Below the pieces are notes generated by a model. The model was not told the DNA's origin, made no database searches, and was given only the letters and a program-made list of their open reading frames with translations. The position numbers and the translations under genes were made by a program. From Actinacidiphila guanduensis (GTDB lineage Bacteria > Actinomycetota > Actinomycetes > Streptomycetales > Streptomycetaceae), in NCBI RefSeq assembly GCF_900103985.1, contig NZ_FNIE01000002.1:124001-188000 (forward strand): a DNA stretch of 64,000 bases, in the 5' to 3' direction. Numbering within the stretch: the first letter of the stretch is position 1; every line of letters begins with the position of its first letter. This document shows, piece by piece, positions 17,106-22,745 of the stretch.

Positions 17106-17126
17106 GCGGCTCACACTACCAAGTGC

Positions 17127-17142
17127 GAACCTGTATCGGTTC
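17127..17142. promoter_or_regulatory. Candidate operator in the TetR/oxidoreductase divergent promoter
   Basis: GAACCTGTATCGGTTC has perfect 5-bp outer arms GAACC/GGTTC. A second, weaker ACCGT...ACGGT element lies at 17153-17169. Both fall in the 71-bp divergent gap. Confidence 0.4.
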
Positions 17143-17176
17143 TAAAAAGCTAACCGTTAGTGTTACGGTCGCCGGC

Positions 17177-18070
17177 ATGAAGAAAGTCAGCTTCGCCGAG
17201 TTCGGCGGTCCGGAGGTCCTGCGCCTCATCGATGCCGAGGAGCCGCACGCCGGCCCCGGGCGGATACGCATTGCCGTGCGGGCGGCGGGCGTGAACCCCG
17301 TCGACTGGAGGCTCCGCGAGGGCCAGGTGCTGGGCGCCCATCCCGTCGTGCTGCCCGCCGGGGTCGGGCAGGATGCCGCCGGGGTGGTGGACGAGGTCGG
17401 GGAGGGGGTCGACGGGGTGGCGGTCGGCGACCGCGTGTTCGGCGAAGGGACCGCCACCTATGCGGAGTTCGCCGTGCTGTCGGCCTGGGCGCTGATGCCC
17501 GGGGGGCTGACGTTCGAGGAGGCCGCCGGGTATCCGTCCGTGGTGGAGACCGCGCTGCGGATCATCCGCGAGGTCGGAGTACGGCCCGGGGAGACGCTGC
17601 TGGTCGGCGGCGCGGCCGGAGGAGTCGGGTCGGCGGTGCTGCAGATCGCCCGCGACCGGGGCATCGCCGTGATCGGCACGGCAAGCGCGGCGAACCAGGA
17701 TTACCTGCGGGGTCTGGGCGCCCTTGCCACCACGTACGGCGAGGGCTGGGTGGAACGGGTGCGGCGGCTCGGCCGTGTCGACGCCGCCCTCGACCTCGCC
17801 GGGTCCGGGGTGATCCGCGAGCTCGTCGAACTGACCGGGGACCCGCGGCGGGTGGTCTCCATCGCCGACCTCGACGCGCCCGCGCTCGGCGTCCGGTTCT
17901 CCGGCGTGGCCGGCAGCGTCCCGGACGCCCTCGCCGAGGCAGCCGCGCTCATCACGCGAGGACGGCTCCACATCCCGGTCGAGAAGTCCTACCCCCTCGC
18001 GGAGGCGGCAGCCGCCCACACCGACAGCCAAAGCGGCCACACAAGGGGCCGCCGCGTAATGATCCCCTGA
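17177..18070 (+). CDS. NADP-dependent quinone oxidoreductase-like MDR protein
   Basis: 297 residues. It has a GroES-like N domain (about 25-110, with AAGVNPVDWRLREG). The nucleotide site is LLVGGAAGGVGSAVLQIA (about 143-160). No zinc-ligand cysteine set is present, so it belongs to the zinc-free quinone oxidoreductase branch. The family reduces quinones or enones with NADPH. The ATG at 17177 lacks a Shine-Dalgarno. Divergent TetR regulation is likely. Confidence 0.87.
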   Translation: MKKVSFAEFGGPEVLRLIDAEEPHAGPGRIRIAVRAAGVNPVDWRLREGQVLGAHPVVLPAGVGQDAAGVVDEVGEGVDGVAVGDRVFGEGTATYAEFAVLSAWALMPGGLTFEEAAGYPSVVETALRIIREVGVRPGETLLVGGAAGGVGSAVLQIARDRGIAVIGTASAANQDYLRGLGALATTYGEGWVERVRRLGRVDAALDLAGSGVIRELVELTGDPRRVVSIADLDAPALGVRFSGVAGSVPDALAEAAALITRGRLHIPVEKSYPLAEAAAAHTDSQSGHTRGRRVMIP

Positions 18071-18209
18071 GCCGCGCCCCTCTTACGGTGCGGCTTCCCG
18101 CCGTCCGGGTTCGCCGCCGTCGCCGCCTGCCGCGGCAATGGGGCTACGGGGCGGCTTCCCGCCCTTGGGGTTCGCCGCCGTCGCCGACAGCCGCGCCATC
18201 GTGGCTTGT

Positions 18210-18438
18210 CGCGCAGTTCCTCCCCCAGAGCTTCGCCTGGGAGGTACCCCCAGCGCCGCTGGGTTATACGGCCTCGCCGTTCGCACGAAGGGCAAGGTTT
18301 TCAGGGGCGCGGGGAACTGCGCGGGACGAGGCCACCGGCCTCTGGACGGCAGACAACCCCCGTGGGGCAGACGGGAACCCGAAAGGGGCGCTGGGGGTAC
18401 CCCCAGGCGAAGCTCTGGGGGAGGAACTGCGCGCGCAA
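18210..18438. repeat. Dispersed palindromic repeat cluster A (gene-free 18071-18522)
   Basis: The 452-bp gap has no gene. It holds an inverted long copy (18210-18256), a short copy (18302-18330) and a direct long copy (18384-18438) of one repeat. Short form: AGGGGCG-CGGG-GAACTGCGCG. In the long form CGGG is replaced by CTGGGGG-TA-CCCCCAG-GCGAAGCT-CTGGGGG-AG. In copy 18384 the middle CCCCCAG (18400-18406) can pair with either flank (18391-18397 or 18415-18421). A second direct repeat with cores around 18090 and 18151 (GCGGCTTCCCGCC and GGTTCGCCGCCGTCGCCG) lies to the left. Confidence 0.75.
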
Positions 18439-18522
18439 CCGGTCACCGGGCGGCAGGCGGCGACGAGACAGGAACCCCAACGGCGAGAAGCCGCACCCGC
18501 CCGCTCAAGCGGCCGCCCCCGC

Positions 18523-19728
18523 TCAAGCGGAACGCACTTCCGGGGAGAGGAGCGCCGCACAGGTCGCGAGCGTGACGACGAGGGCGCAGCCCGCCAGGGC
18601 CGCGCGGGTGCCGACGGCCGCGGCGATCGGTCCCGCGACCAGGAGGCCGAGCGGGGCAAGCGACAGGGAACCGAAGGCGTCGTAGGAGCTGACCCGGGAA
18701 AGCACCTCGTCCGGGATCTCGCGCTGCAGCGTGGTGGACCACAGCACCCCGAAGACGTCCGTGGCGAGCCCGGAGCAGAACATCGCCACGCAGATCGTCC
18801 ACACAGGGGCCGGCAGCGCGAGCAGCGCCATCGGCACCGCCATGGGAAAAGTCGCGAGCACCGCCACCAGGACGGGCCGCCCCACCCTGATCCGCACCGC
18901 GAGCCCCGCCCCCGCGATCATCCCGAACGCCTGCGCGGCAACGATCGCCGACCACGCCCGCGCCCCACCCAAGTGCTGCTCCGCGGTGAGCGGCCCCAGC
19001 ACCCCGGCGTTCGCGTTGAGCGCGGCCACCACGAAGGAGAACTGCGCGACGACCGCCCACAGCCACTGCCGCGAGGCGAACTCCTTCCAGCCGACCCGCA
19101 GATCGTGCAGCCCCGAGGTGGCCCCGCGGGGCCGGGCCGGCAACCGCAGCCCGCGCAGCAGCAACGCGCTCAGCCCGAAGGAGGCCGCGTTGAGCGCCAG
19201 CGCCCAACCCGCGCCCAGGAAAGCGACGGTGACGCCGGAGAGGGCGAGCCCCAGCAGCATCGCCCCATTGGTGCCCAGCCGCAGCAGGCCGTTGGCCTCC
19301 TGGAGCCGTTCCGCGGGGACGATCTGCGGGACGACGCCGGCTGCCGCGGGGGCGAAGAGGGCGGTGCCCGTCCCGGCGAGGACGGCGAGCAGGCACATCG
19401 CCGCTAGGGGCGCGTGGGAGGTGAGCACCATGGCGGCGAGGCAGCCGTAAGCGGTGAGGCCGACGAGGTCGGAACCCACCATCAGCCGCGAGCGGGAGAC
19501 GCGGTCGGCGATCACCCCGCCGACCAGGACGAAGGCGAGTTGCGGCAGCGCCTGGCAGGCCAGCACGAGCGAGAGCCGTCCCGGCCCGGCCCCCGGAAGC
19601 GCCAGCACCGCGAAGGCGAGGGCCACTTGGGCGAAGGCGTTACCGAGGACCGAGACGGTACGGGCCGAGGCGAGCAGCAGGAACCGACGCTCGCGCCACA
19701 CCGTCGCCGTCACCGAAGTGGCCGTCAT
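18523..19728 (-). CDS. MFS transporter (MFS_3, EntS-like exporter)
   Basis: 401 residues with about 11-12 hydrophobic helices. The N-terminal part reads SARTVSVLGNAFAQVALAFA. The loop-2 motif GGVIADRVSRSRLM (about 70-83) is the MFS signature. MFS_3 members export small molecules, including siderophores and drugs; the substrate here is unknown. It starts 7 bp after the stop of the dienelactone-hydrolase-like gene, so the two probably form an operon. Confidence 0.87.
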   Translation of the reverse strand: MTATSVTATVWRERRFLLLASARTVSVLGNAFAQVALAFAVLALPGAGPGRLSLVLACQALPQLAFVLVGGVIADRVSRSRLMVGSDLVGLTAYGCLAAMVLTSHAPLAAMCLLAVLAGTGTALFAPAAAGVVPQIVPAERLQEANGLLRLGTNGAMLLGLALSGVTVAFLGAGWALALNAASFGLSALLLRGLRLPARPRGATSGLHDLRVGWKEFASRQWLWAVVAQFSFVVAALNANAGVLGPLTAEQHLGGARAWSAIVAAQAFGMIAGAGLAVRIRVGRPVLVAVLATFPMAVPMALLALPAPVWTICVAMFCSGLATDVFGVLWSTTLQREIPDEVLSRVSSYDAFGSLSLAPLGLLVAGPIAAAVGTRAALAGCALVVTLATCAALLSPEVRSA

Positions 19729-19734
19729 GCGGCC

Positions 19735-20463
19735 TCACCCTAAGTCCAGGGGCAGGCACTCGGCGAGGAGGTCGAGGACGTCCCGCCAGGCGCGCTGGGC
19801 GTGCTGGGGGTGGTAGCCGACGCCGGGCAGTACGACGTGGCCGACCGTCGGGTGGTGGAAGGCGTGCAGGGCGCCGCCGTAGACCACGAGACGCCAGTCG
19901 ACGCCCGCGGACTGCATCTCGGCGGTGAACGCGTCCCGTTGCGCGGGGGCCATGATCGGGTCCTCCGACCCGACCCCGGACCACACCGGGCAGCGAATGC
20001 GCGCCGCCTCGCCCGGCCGGCCCGTGATCAGTCCGTTGACGGTGGCGATCGCGCGCAGGTCGACGCCGTCGCGCCCGAGTTCCAGGGCGATCGCGCCTCC
20101 GGTGCCGTAGCCGATGGCGGCGACCCGGTCCGGGTCGGTGCGCGGCTCGGCGCGGAGTACGTCGAGTGCCGCGTGGCCGATGTCCCGCATCCGCTCGGGG
20201 TCGGCGAGCAGCGGCATGCAGCGGGCCAGCATCTCCTCGGGGTCGCCCAGGTAGCGCCCGCCGTGGAGGTCGAACGCCAGCGCCACGTATCCCAACTCGG
20301 CGAGCGCGTCGGCCCGGCCTCGCTCGACGTCGCTGAGCCCCACGCCCTCGGGCCCGACCAGGACCGCGGGCCGCCGTCCGGCACCGCCCGGGACCGCGAG
20401 GTGCCCGACCATCGTCAGCCCATCGGCCGCGTACTCGACCGTGCGCGTGGTGACTGTCGTCAT
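19735..20463 (-). CDS. Dienelactone hydrolase-like protein lacking the nucleophile
   Basis: 242 residues with an alpha/beta-hydrolase fold of the DLH type. The nucleophile elbow, normally GYCxGG, reads GYGTGG at 118-123: Gly120 sits where Cys (or Ser) should be (codon at 20104-20106). The acid (VGSEDPIMA) and histidine (GALHAFHH) positions remain. The protein may therefore be inactive, or use another residue, or bind rather than cleave. Codon 241 is TTA (19741-19743), the rare leucine codon read by bldA tRNA. The ATG at 20463 lacks a strong Shine-Dalgarno and lies just after a TACAGT, so it may be leaderless. First gene of an operon with the MFS exporter. Confidence 0.85.
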   Translation of the reverse strand: MTTVTTRTVEYAADGLTMVGHLAVPGGAGRRPAVLVGPEGVGLSDVERGRADALAELGYVALAFDLHGGRYLGDPEEMLARCMPLLADPERMRDIGHAALDVLRAEPRTDPDRVAAIGYGTGGAIALELGRDGVDLRAIATVNGLITGRPGEAARIRCPVWSGVGSEDPIMAPAQRDAFTAEMQSAGVDWRLVVYGGALHAFHHPTVGHVVLPGVGYHPQHAQRAWRDVLDLLAECLPLDLG

Positions 20464-20590
20464 GAACCCGGACTGTAGTGATCGCCGCCCCACCCCAACG
20501 GATGTTCCGCCCCCGGCAGAACCCAGCCCCCTCAGCCCGCCCAGCCGGCCCGCACCAGGGAACGCGGAGGCCGGGGCAGACGGGCTGCCG

Positions 20591-20944
20591 CAGGGGCGCT
20601 GGGGGTACCGCCCAGGCGAAGCTCTGGGGGAGGAACTGCACGCGCACCGGCTGGCCTACGGCCGGAGACGGACAGGCAGGGGCAACCCCCGTACCCGAGG
20701 GGCGCTGGGGGCACCCCCCAGGCGAAGTTCTGGGGGAGGAACCGCGCGCCCAGCCCACGACGGGCCGCGGTCGGGAACGCCGAGGTCGGGGCAAACGCAT
20801 CGCCGAAGGGGCGCGGGGAACTGCGCGAGAAGAGGCCACAGACCCGGCGACGGCATCGCACCCCGTGGGGCACACGGGAGCCCGAAAGGGGCGCTGGGGG
20901 TACCTCCCAGGCGAAGCCCTGGGGGAGGAACTGCGCGCCCAGCC
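20591..20944. repeat. Dispersed palindromic repeat cluster B (gene-free 20464-21116)
   Basis: The 653-bp gap has no gene. It carries four same-orientation copies: long 20591-20646, long 20698-20755, short 20806-20830 and long 20887-20944. Spacers are also partly repeated: blocks like GGAACGCCGAGGTCGGGGCA and CGTGGGGCACACGGGAGCCC recur here and at 18351-18380. This shows that units of about 100 bp, not only the core, were duplicated. Loop and stem bases vary between copies (for example GGGTACC, GGGCACC, GGGTACCG). Confidence 0.75.
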
Positions 20945-21116
20945 AGGACGGCCCGGCAGTCGGCAACGGCGGCCCACCCCAACGGCGAGTAGCCACCGCT
21001 TAGTGGCGGAGCCCCCCGGCAGTGGTCTCGCCCACCGCCGGAAGGCAACCGGCACCGCCCTCCCTCGACCCGCCGACCCGCCACCACGCATTCCGCTGGC
21101 CGGACGGGCACGATCT

Positions 21117-21326
21117 TCAAACGGAGGGGAATTCGCCCGCCTTCACGCCGGCCACGAAATCGGCCCACGCGGCAGGCGCGAAGGCCAGCGCGGGACCGCT
21201 CGGGTCCTTGGAATCGCGGACGGGAACCACACCGCGCGAAGCGGCGAGGTTGGCGGCGACCTCGACGCAGGTGCCGCCGTTGTCGCTGTACGAGGACGTG
21301 AACCAACGCGGAGTCTCAGTGGTCAC
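21117..21326 (-). CDS. DUF397 protein, copy 2 of a tandem pair
   Basis: 69 residues (GTG start), a single DUF397 domain: WFTSSYSDNGGTCVEVA, then VVPVRDSKDPSGPALAF and AWADFVAGVKAGEF. It is about 85 percent identical by eye to the DUF397 copy at 21392-21601, so it is a recent duplicate. DUF397 proteins (BldB/WhiJ-associated family) are encoded beside XRE/DUF5753 regulators in Streptomyces and are thought to modulate them. The gap to copy 1 is 65 bp. Confidence 0.85.
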   Translation of the reverse strand: MTTETPRWFTSSYSDNGGTCVEVAANLAASRGVVPVRDSKDPSGPALAFAPAAWADFVAGVKAGEFPSV

Positions 21327-21391
21327 GGAGTGCCCCGTTCGCAGCTCGCCGATCGTGGCAAACGGTGCCCGTCCGAAATGGCCGAGGGCCC

Positions 21392-21601
21392 TCAGACGGT
21401 CGGGAAGTCGCCCGCCTTCACGCCCGCCACGAACGCCGCCCACGCAGCGGTCGGGAAGGCGAGGGCGGGGCCGCTCGGGTCCTTGGAGTCACGGACGGGG
21501 ACCACACCGCGCGAAGCGATGAGGTTTGCGGCAACCTCGACGCAGGTGCCGCCGTTGTTGCTGTACGAGGACTTGAACCAACGCGGGGTTTCGGTCGTCA
21601 C
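21392..21601 (-). CDS. DUF397 protein, copy 1 of a tandem pair
   Basis: 69 residues: WFKSSYSNNGGTCVEVA, VVPVRDSKDPSGPALAF and AWAAFVAGVKAGDF. Its GTG start overlaps the stop of the XRE/DUF5753 gene (GTGA, 21598-21601), so the two are translationally coupled, the classic WhiJ-type arrangement. The DUF397 product probably acts as small antagonist or partner of that regulator. Function of the family is only partly known. Confidence 0.88.
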   Translation of the reverse strand: MTTETPRWFKSSYSNNGGTCVEVAANLIASRGVVPVRDSKDPSGPALAFPTAAWAAFVAGVKAGDFPTV

Positions 21602-22437
21602 GGGGTGCCCTTTCGCAACTTGCTGATCATGGCCACGGTGGCTGCCTGCGACAGCGATTCGGCCTGTAGCTGATGGTAGGCCGTCAACATGGGCTGTACC
21701 GACGTCGTTTCCCGGTCGAGGTGCCCTTGGGCATGGGACTCCGCGTAGCAGACCACGGACCTGTCCGGCAGCATCAGAAGGTTGACAGCCCGGTCAAACG
21801 TCCTGCGCTCACCGATCTCGTACGGGGCCACCTGCAGCTGCGTGTTCGGCAGCTCGGCGAACTCGATCAGCCGCGCCAACTGGCCGTCCATCACGGCAGG
21901 TCCGCCGATGGGCCGACGGATGCAGCTCTCGTCCATGATCACGAACACCATCGGTGGTCGCGGCCGTACGAGTGCCTTCTGCCGGTCCGCCACAAGCGCC
22001 ACGCGCTCCTCAGCCTGCTTGGGCGTGATGGCTCCGCGCCTGACCGCGCTGTTCGCCAGCACCTGTGCGTACTCCGGCGTCTGCAGCAGCCCCGGAATGA
22101 TGCCGACTTCGAACACCCGGATCTCGGTGGCTCGCCCTTCACGATCCACGTACTCGGGGAACCCTTCGAGCAGGGAGCCCCGGCGCATTTCGTAGAACTC
22201 CCGCTCGAAGGACTCGGGGCCGCCGCCGGTCCCGAGGACGGTGTCCAGCCGCCGGGCGAACGTAAGAGTTGGCGGCTTCCGGCCGGTTTCGATCGCCGAA
22301 ATGTGCTGGCCGGAATACTCCGTCTCCTCGGCAAGCTCCTCCTGGCTCCATCCGCGAGCCTCGCGCAAGCTGCGCACACGGTAGCCGAAGGCCGCTCGCG
22401 GGCTGCTCTCCGGGTGAAGTTCCTTGCGGTTGACCAT
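21598..22437 (-). CDS. XRE-family regulator with DUF5753 (WhiJ-like)
   Basis: 279 residues. The HTH_31/XRE domain (about 16-75) reads FGYRVRSLREARGWSQEELA and YSGQHISAIETGRKPPTLTF. DUF5753 (about 95-270) includes EIRVFEVGIIPGLLQTPEYA and DESCIRRPIGGPAVMDGQLA. It is visibly lower in GC than its neighbours. The ATG at 22437 is the likely start. It is coupled to DUF397 copy 1 by GTGA and divergent from a second XRE set; the palindrome at 22512-22527 in the gap may be its operator. Confidence 0.9.
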   Translation of the reverse strand: MVNRKELHPESSPRAAFGYRVRSLREARGWSQEELAEETEYSGQHISAIETGRKPPTLTFARRLDTVLGTGGGPESFEREFYEMRRGSLLEGFPEYVDREGRATEIRVFEVGIIPGLLQTPEYAQVLANSAVRRGAITPKQAEERVALVADRQKALVRPRPPMVFVIMDESCIRRPIGGPAVMDGQLARLIEFAELPNTQLQVAPYEIGERRTFDRAVNLLMLPDRSVVCYAESHAQGHLDRETTSVQPMLTAYHQLQAESLSQAATVAMISKLRKGTP

Positions 22438-22511
22438 GTCGTCCCCAACTCTTCCTTCGCTGTTGACCAGTTGAAGGATCGCCTGATCCTCCGTCACCCT
22501 GGCCGGGTTCC

Positions 22512-22527
22512 GTAGTGGAAACGCTAC
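22512..22527. promoter_or_regulatory. Inverted repeat between two XRE gene sets
   Basis: GTAGTGGAAACGCTAC has arms GTAGTG/CGCTAC (one mismatch) around GAAA. It lies 15 bp before the small-protein start and 75 bp before the divergent XRE start. A shared operator for the XRE proteins is inferred. Confidence 0.45.
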
Positions 22528-22541
22528 AGAGAGGTGCGGAC

Positions 22542-22745
22542 ATGAGTATGACGATTGCCGTATATCGGATCGACGCAACGTCCGGAGAACGCATTACCGT
22601 TCGGGACCGCTATGACGTCCGCCCCGCGACCACGCCGCCGCCCCTGACCACCGCGTTGCCGCCGTGCGACTGCGAGCGGTGCCGGAAGGGGGCGCGGAGC
22701 GGGGCGCCGCGGGACAAGTGGGGGACGGTGCGTTCCCGTGCCTAG
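22542..22745 (+). CDS. Small hypothetical protein with a CxCxxC motif
   Basis: 67 residues, MSMTIAVYRID..., with a Pro-rich middle and PPCDCERCRKGA near residue 45, a possible metal-binding CxCxxC. A GAGAGGTG Shine-Dalgarno precedes the ATG. It overlaps the next XRE gene by 8 bp, so it is part of that operon. No family is recognised with confidence. The protein is small and soluble, without a signal peptide. Confidence 0.6.
   Translation: MSMTIAVYRIDATSGERITVRDRYDVRPATTPPPLTTALPPCDCERCRKGARSGAPRDKWGTVRSRA

Follow-up and report, generated by a model that had tools for sequence, protein, structure and literature searches.

A probable REP/BIME-like mosaic family of stem-loop repeats in Streptomycetaceae, with an inserted hairpin that looks separately mobile

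The window analysed here is a 64,000-nucleotide stretch of Actinacidiphila guanduensis (assembly GCF_900103985.1, contig NZ_FNIE01000002.1, positions 124,001 to 188,000 of the forward strand), a streptomycete relative (Streptomycetaceae) whose 8.22 Mb genome is labelled G000 below. A dispersed stem-loop repeat occurs in the window in a long and a short form, and the seven copies reported in a preliminary description were all confirmed, five long and two short, on both sides of genes for a major facilitator superfamily (MFS) transporter and a dienelactone hydrolase (DLH) family protein (Pfam MFS_1 and DLH). Our analysis suggests that they probably belong to a mosaic family of Streptomycetaceae repeats resembling repetitive extragenic palindromes (REPs) and bacterial interspersed mosaic elements (BIMEs), in which the hairpin inserted in the long form looks separately mobile across species. 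The copies sit in two stretches free of predicted genes, one (18071-18522) separating the MFS gene from an oxidoreductase gene convergent with it, the other (20494-21116) separating the DLH gene from a DUF397 gene. The features are as follows.

17123..18070, plus strand: zinc-binding alcohol dehydrogenase / quinone oxidoreductase-like gene, convergent with the MFS gene
18084-18144 and 18145-18205, minus strand: two tandem outer-arm copies, 84% identical, between the oxidoreductase stop codon and long copy 1
18210..18259, minus strand: long copy 1, module centre CCTCCCAG, loop GCGAAGCT
18260..18303, no strand: spacer between inverted copies, containing an inverted repeat of the CTTGCCCTTCGCGCGAAGGGCAAG type that is common in the spacers of this genome
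18304..18323, plus strand: short copy 1, GGGGCGCGGGGAACTGCGCG, predicted hairpin GCGCGG-GGAA-CTGCGC
18385..18433, plus strand: long copy 2, in the form given by the preliminary description, CTGGGGG-TA-CCCCCAG-GCGAAGCT-CTGGGGG
18391..18423, plus strand: hairpin module of long copy 2, CTGGGGG...CTGGGGGAG
18434..18493, plus strand: outer arm of long copy 2, ending in CGGCGAGAAGCCG and facing the MFS stop codon
18523..19728, minus strand: MFS transporter gene
19735..20493, minus strand: dienelactone hydrolase family (DLH) gene
20593..20642, plus strand: long copy 3
20699..20748, plus strand: long copy 4
20808..20827, plus strand: short copy 2
20888..20937, plus strand: long copy 5
20938..20996, plus strand: outer arm after long copy 5

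A genome-wide count, proposed in the preliminary description, returned 261 matches to the short form (up to 2 mismatches) and 63 to the long form (up to 3 mismatches), and reversed-pattern controls in the same genome gave 1 and 0 respectively, so the repeats are not due to chance. Each unit has a core, a 20-mer in the short form and an approximately 50-mer in the long form, and after it an outer arm of about 65 nt, which is more weakly conserved than the core and parts of which form hairpins. In G000 tandem units are spaced about 80 bp apart and inverted pairs surround a spacer of approximately 45 nt; an inverted core end lies within 70 nt upstream in 46 of 210 copies, a figure that is too low, as inverted long copies extend beyond this distance. 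Most pairs in the stretches read from the relatives G001 and G003 are in opposite orientation and mostly 119-129 bp in total. Such composites form imperfect palindromes in which the outer arms match and the ends are undefined. The short core folds as the GCGCGG-GGAA-CTGCGC hairpin with both RNA and DNA folding, and in the consensus fold of 40 distinct long copies the GCGC stem is retained, with a second hairpin nested in its loop, this being the module of approximately 32 nt (consensus TGGGGG-NNCC(T)CC-RG-loop-CYGGGGGAG) that occupies the apical loop of the core. An Rfam search of 17500-21500 at E-values up to 1 found no match. The long copies are also open in several frames and give rise to false open reading frames (ORFs; 18088-19407 plus, 18264-18659 minus, 20532-20996 minus and others) with the motifs VPPPELRLGGTPSAP or FLPQSFAWEVPPAP, an annotation trap.

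Among 297 Streptomycetaceae genomes drawn evenly from the larger group, the exact short 20-mer is present in 171, spread over 9 of 17 genera, and the control pattern gives 0 in every genome listed; at least 100 exact copies are held by 37 of the 297, and counts within the genus range from 0 to 471 per genome. The long form, searched as an exact pattern with a free loop, occurs in at least 7 of the 297 genomes and 2 of the 17 genera, a lower bound because G004 and G005 hold variants that the pattern misses. Within the genus the short form (1 mismatch) is found in 27 of 35 genomes and the long form (GCGAAG loop, up to 3 mismatches) in 3 of 35; G003 is Actinacidiphila alni (L079/L142) and G033 is A. 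yanglinensis (L096/L178), the repeat contexts being identical. Six Streptomyces plasmids carry a match, including H6, which is weak, intragenic and probably due to chance, and H1, which is unannotated; the copies with annotated neighbours (H2-H5) each face the stop codon of a gene. A phage or virus origin was rejected, as the three exact patterns had 0 matches in IMG/VR and there were none in phage records. The preliminary description held that short copies lack exactly the module, as if it had been inserted or excised, and this did not hold to the letter, since the short form has CGGG between GGGGCG and GAACTGCGCG where the long copies of the window have 33-34 nt. Short copies could still be imagined as deletion products of long ones, as the flanks are identical in both forms and the direct CTGGGGG repeats would be able to recombine; such recombination, however, would leave GGGGCGCTGGGGGAGGAAC, which differs from the short form and is seen rarely (L049 minus 3398, L061 plus 9727 and a flank of L098), and the exact short form is present in many more genomes than the exact long form, making this origin highly improbable.

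The gaps between conserved neighbours show that presence of the repeat is lineage-specific. At a first junction, flanked by what we take from the sequence to be a dihydropteroate-synthase-like gene and by a convergent gene, the gap was readable in 30 relatives, out of 32 fetched and 34 in the genus, and in 29 of the 30 it measures 6-175 bp (median 30) and holds no full core, including G014, which holds the 11-mer GGAACGGCGCG. The gap in G033 is 228 bp and carries an inverted pair of short cores, and that in G000 is 280 bp and carries a long copy with a degraded inverted partner. Two gains at this junction would be a simpler account than approximately 28 losses. The G033 composite (L246) ends in GGGTGCCCCTGACCCCC / GGGGGTCAGGGGCACCC inverted repeats that adjoin both stop codons, and pieces of this sequence are also present in the short gaps of G026 and G011. 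A second gap is 252 bp in G000, with one long and one short copy; one short-like core lies in the corresponding gap of G026 and two in that of G031, adjoining the same gene end, with 260 nt per side inspected where the gaps of relatives exceeded 500 bp. Relatives of the MFS gene in G023, G001 and G006 have no repeat alongside, and these loci are not clean empty sites because their neighbouring genes differ. Elsewhere in the window, the DUF397-type region within 21117-21610 is tandemly duplicated (21117-21335 and 21392-21610; 87% identical) and lies beside a helix-turn-helix regulator-like ORF (21598-22578).

In the preliminary description the long form was seen as a pair of mutually exclusive hairpins, with CCCCCAG pairing either with the CTGGGGG on its left (loop TA) or with that on its right (8-base loop), and hence as a possible structural switch. 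The arrangement CTGGGGG-TA-CCCCCAG, 8-base loop, CTGGGGG is indeed that of 18385-18433 and is not that of the other four of the five long copies in the window. Among the 75 long copies sampled from the window and 40 further stretches of G000 (859 kb, chosen for holding copies), the module centre is CCTCCCAG in 41, CCCCCAG in 19 and other sequences in 15, and left pairing is perfect in 17. Both helices were scored on the same alignment of the 40 distinct long copies, 31 rows of which came from an open-interior scan and 9 from the window or from patterns fixing part of the stem. The scan gave at least 107 loci, 80 of which were used for counts: the 57 Streptomycetaceae loci with related interiors yielded 63 matches (35 distinct), and the interiors of the remaining 23 (19 from other taxa, 4 from Streptomyces) are unrelated. 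The copies L181, L151, L192 and L144:1556, with arms absent or sequence added, were omitted from the alignment, and in the further 27 loci outside the counts a strict test found the hairpin in 21 of 28 matches, compared with 58 of 86 in the 80.

The centre-right helix is paired in 97.4% of cells and has 15 cells changed on both sides, a value reached in 0 of 500 shuffles, and sliding its partner lowers all its scores. Its pair types include A-U, G-U and G-C at one position and C-G, G-U, A-U and G-C at another. The number of pairs with two-sided changes (2) and of pair types (5) do not go beyond the shuffles (125 and 88 of 500, respectively), 6 of the 15 two-sided cells are the G-U of the window's genome and G026, where a bulge is likelier, and the GGTA-loop copies drop out of one pair because the alignment is not structure-aware. 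The left-centre helix is paired in 97.1% of cells and has zero two-sided changes, like the shuffles, so that of the covariation looked for in the stems across copies, that of the centre-right hairpin was found and that of the left-centre one was not. With the arms folded as separate pieces (plus strand, RNA), the left-centre and centre-right helices have energies of -9.0 and -13.0 kcal/mol in the majority form of G000, -10.0 and -12.9 in its minority form, -9.0 and -15.6 in A. alni, and -9.3 and -16.0 in the Streptomyces GAA form; centre-right is more stable in 7 of 7 long sequences folded, with RNA and DNA parameters alike, and in the consensus fold it is nested in the core independently of the left arm. 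The two inverted long copies of the window also pair with each other, at -102.6 kcal/mol as DNA (z -12.6) in the one region folded. Because the left helix has no two-sided changes, the centre-right helix is more stable and inverted copies pair together, the left helix appears to be a by-product of the repetition of CTGGGGG. A switch in which the CCCCCAG centre arm pairs left or right in the transcript and controls expression would fit the pairing of both helices in about 97% of cells and is very improbable on these other grounds, the pairing between copies being far stronger than either helix.

The loops of the module hairpin point to DNA rather than RNA. Of 81 combinations of genome and interior under 18 labels, 51 have GNA or GNNA loops closed by C-G, 2 have the inverse and 28 are mixed, mostly single variants; as G016 and CBMA29 are apparently the same genome, the count becomes 50 of 80. 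The GNNA tetraloops observed are GGTA, GGCA, GATA, GTCA, GTTA and GCCA, none of which is an RNA GNRA loop. The loop d(cGNNAg) is described as a stable DNA tetraloop class (Nakano 2002, as cited in PMC8373063) and GCGAAGC as an extraordinarily stable DNA hairpin (PMC6582339). Since these are stable-DNA loop classes, a role for single-stranded DNA is favoured, and we infer that a single-stranded DNA hairpin is the form recognised; the copies are related, and the loop count does not represent independent events. In the rare copies L169, L135 and G016:C216 the apical loop is reversed (TTC, TACC) and the stem unchanged, as if flipped.

The module is also found away from the core, which supports in part the insertion suggested in the preliminary description, with the reservations that the short form is not an exact excision product or empty site and that in the window's genome the module stays in the core. 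A pattern excluding the usual core continuation, which also admits core variants, matched all 15 genome handles (14 genomes) at 3 to 33 places each, with 0 in controls. Thirty loci were read (28 distinct), with 19 modules outside the core, 5 in another repeat, where they follow GGGTGGGCGC, 2 nested in the module of a core and 4 core variants, so that a copy outside the core is present in 12 of the 14 genomes (the 28 distinct loci plus L136); in S. morookaense only nested module copies were read. The module also lies in the 3' arm of units (L278, L283), doubled in tandem within one core (L064 17266 and 17298, with a second pair around 19139) and nested inside another module (L205, L196). In G000 it is confined to the core except for tandem doubles and a loop-less relative that follows GGAACTGC; one degenerate match (L064 minus 17402) also stands apart from this rule. 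Of 18 listed copies of the loop-less relative (CTCCCCCAGAGGGGGCACCCCCA), 16 are preceded by GGAACTGC or GGAACGGC, allowing for small variations. A second recurrent context, ...GCAGGGCGGCACGGGTGGGCGC-module-GCACCC..., is seen at L340, L347, L348 and L357 in four Streptomyces genomes, and longer versions of the module with an added hairpin-forming GCGAGCGAAGCKAG occur at L283 9342-9507 and 13027-13192 (G004) and in the folP-side gap of G013.

Seven modules lie inside protein-coding genes, and in all of them the frame is open and the plus strand of the module is the coding strand. The clearest is an AhpD-like carboxymuconolactone decarboxylase gene of the metagenome-assembled Streptomyces genome SH_71_13, in which the module is a 27-nt in-frame insert missing from 30 of 30 homologues compared, all taken from the family; in alignment with PDB relatives it falls opposite a gap of 9 residues. 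In S. hyaluromycini a PcrA/UvrD-type helicase gene shows a 9-residue gap against 1pjr, and a BirA-type gene of Streptomyces CBMA29 a 10-residue gap against 9drn and 3rux. The others are in LipB-type (S. fuscichromogenes), PucR-type (S. humi) and SDR-type (S. shenzhenensis) genes and in one CBMA29 frame without a Pfam match; the six other than the AhpD-like case come from records that are not marked as metagenomic, and a further candidate (L346) was not clear and was not counted. Insertion in frame at sites where homologues have none, as in the AhpD-like case and in the PcrA- and BirA-type genes against PDB relatives, is shared with the Rickettsia palindromic elements, which are likewise palindromes found in frame inside genes and between genes. 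The Rickettsia elements are longer, whereas the module here is about 27-33 nt and is also found inside another repeat.

Within the context sample, in which a simple caller based on codon usage gave 713 genes, with at least one small gene missed, 212 of 214 copies are intergenic (138 of 139 short, 74 of 75 long). Among intergenic regions no shorter than 100 bp, long copies are present in 26 of the 73 convergent ones, 32 of the 229 tandem ones and 3 of the 116 divergent ones (convergent versus divergent, Fisher 9e-10); when regions of every length are counted, the values are 26 of 121, 32 of 344 and 3 of 126 (2e-6). Short copies occupy 21 of 73, 42 of 229 and 4 of 116 of the regions of at least 100 bp, their convergent-tandem difference not being significant (p 0.07 and 0.17). 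Genes found within 110 nt of the arm's end present their stop codon in 43 cases and their start codon in 9, with 25 of the 43 stop codons situated 58-73 nt from the core; the other side of the unit faces 11 stops and 0 starts. As to the enrichment at ends that the preliminary description looked for, the copies are enriched at the 3' ends of genes. These positions raise the question of whether the repeats are dedicated bidirectional terminators or 3'-end stabilisers, kept for ending transcription or protecting mRNA between convergent genes. The folds are very stable, the four plasmid copies with annotated neighbours face stop codons too, and a published re-analysis of Term-seq data reports 3' ends in Streptomyces at median distances of 66-76 nt from coding sequences and describes U-poor, long hairpins (PMC12207403). 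The U-poor intrinsic terminators of Streptomyces are thus similar in being strong GC hairpins soon after stop codons, whereas the repeats here are sequence-conserved, dispersed and patchy, with no exact copy in 126 of the 297 genomes and no repeat in 29 of the 30 relatives at the first junction. There is also no U-tract (the 10 nt that follow the element contain 0.9-1.2 T on average, and 17900-21200 has 0 terminator-like sites), and the loop class suits stable DNA better than RNA GNRA loops. We therefore regard a dedicated role as terminator or stabiliser as unlikely.

REPs and BIMEs are described as short extragenic palindromes in hundreds of copies, often between convergent genes (Di Nocera 2013, PMC3733652; the TnpAREP paper, PMC8266576; Tobes and Pareja 2006, PMC1525189). 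The family described here resembles those of Escherichia and Pseudomonas in its 20-50 nt extragenic palindromes of high copy number and in its inverted pairs with linkers and tandem arrays, but differs in that its core carries a second hairpin, in that most copies lack GTAG or CGTC and in that this genome lacks a Y1 transposase. The copy number, the intergenic palindromes and the BIME-like pairs and arrays would suit ordinary REPs moved by a REP-associated tyrosine transposase (RAYT; a Y1 transposase of the IS200/IS605 kind), which can hardly be the explanation. GTAG or CGTC lies within a few bases on either side of the hairpin in 8 of the 139 short copies and 3 of the 75 long ones, and Y1_Tnp (PF01797) gave no match in G000, with 5 of 14 named control genomes matched. 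Across the family Y1_Tnp is present in 98 of 297 genomes, 54 of the 171 with the 20-mer and 44 of the 126 without it, and in 10 of the 37 that hold at least 100 exact copies. Given this lack of association with the 20-mer and the absence of Y1_Tnp from G000, a RAYT is not required. Within the genus it occurs in 7 of 35 genomes, with 0, 0, 0, 22, 0, 0 and 0 exact copies; Y1-positive genomes there have few or no short repeats (7 of 7 with 22 or fewer), the reverse of what is expected of a RAYT, and shared ancestry may explain this. Miniature inverted-repeat transposable elements (MITEs) are comparable in being non-coding, palindromic and present in a lineage-specific manner at a syntenic site, and differ in that no target-site duplication is seen here and the repeats are a mosaic of sub-units; the search for a parental transposon was limited to Y1_Tnp and found none in G000.

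The combination of unit anatomy, copy counts, gene context, lineage-specific presence at the junction, compensatory changes in the module hairpin and a gene module absent from homologues is best accounted for, in our view, by a probable REP/BIME-like mosaic family whose inserted hairpin looks separately mobile in related species. The constant part would be the self-folding 20-mer GGGGCGCGGGGAACTGCGCG with its outer arm, and the long form the same core with the hairpin module in its apical loop. The module would itself be a separate, smaller palindromic element that can occupy the outer arm, stand in tandem, nest in itself and enter another repeat or genes. Core units and modules would both be non-autonomous DNA that spreads through a genome in bursts and is tolerated chiefly at the 3' ends of genes, and any effect on mRNA 3' ends would be secondary.

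Several points weigh against this interpretation. No target-site duplication or exact empty site is definable, because intergenic DNA between the species is too diverged, and no mobilising enzyme was identified, Y1_Tnp being the only one searched for. Conservation of the exact 20-mer over many genera allows for a host function. The context statistics rest on gene calls by a simple script and on stretches selected for copies, and the aligned copies are kin, 9 of the 40 rows having been drawn from the window itself or by patterns in which part of the stem is fixed. In the window's genome no module was read outside a core or core remnant, the degenerate match in L064 apart, and the four places matched are core variants or remnants. 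As for the modules in genes, those other than the AhpD-like case were compared only with distant proteins: the PcrA-type alignment is messier against 9dci and the gap is not clean against UvrD1, the BirA alignments contain other gaps too, the LipB-type module falls in a region wholly absent from PDB relatives, and the SDR-type module is at the N-terminus.

The Streptomycetaceae are heavily studied for antibiotics, yet the 20-mer was not found described in the searchable literature, and no description of the exact sequences or of the repeat family was found there, mostly among open papers, which does not show absence from print. The available parts of PMC3733652, PMC12306157, PMC1590033, PMC8269248, PMC12207403, PMC1525189, PMC11678152 and PMC8266576 contain no description of the family, and the word Streptomyces is absent from the main texts of PMC3733652 and PMC8266576. 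The repeat marks gene 3' ends and confuses gene prediction, as the module reads ...PPPELRLGGTPSAP... in false ORFs, and the lack of a link to the enzyme that moves other REPs indicates another way of spreading. More tentatively, the module of approximately 32 bp may be an independent mobile mini-hairpin, among the smallest mobile units known, that some enzyme recognises as single-stranded DNA through its c(GNA)g or c(GNNA)g loop and that invades intergenic repeats, itself and protein genes. If this is true, the module adds in-frame Gly/Ser/Thr-rich linkers such as GGTSRTKSGGG to proteins, and where it sits in conserved genes it would give new protein linkers a natural origin, with a mobility that is directly testable.

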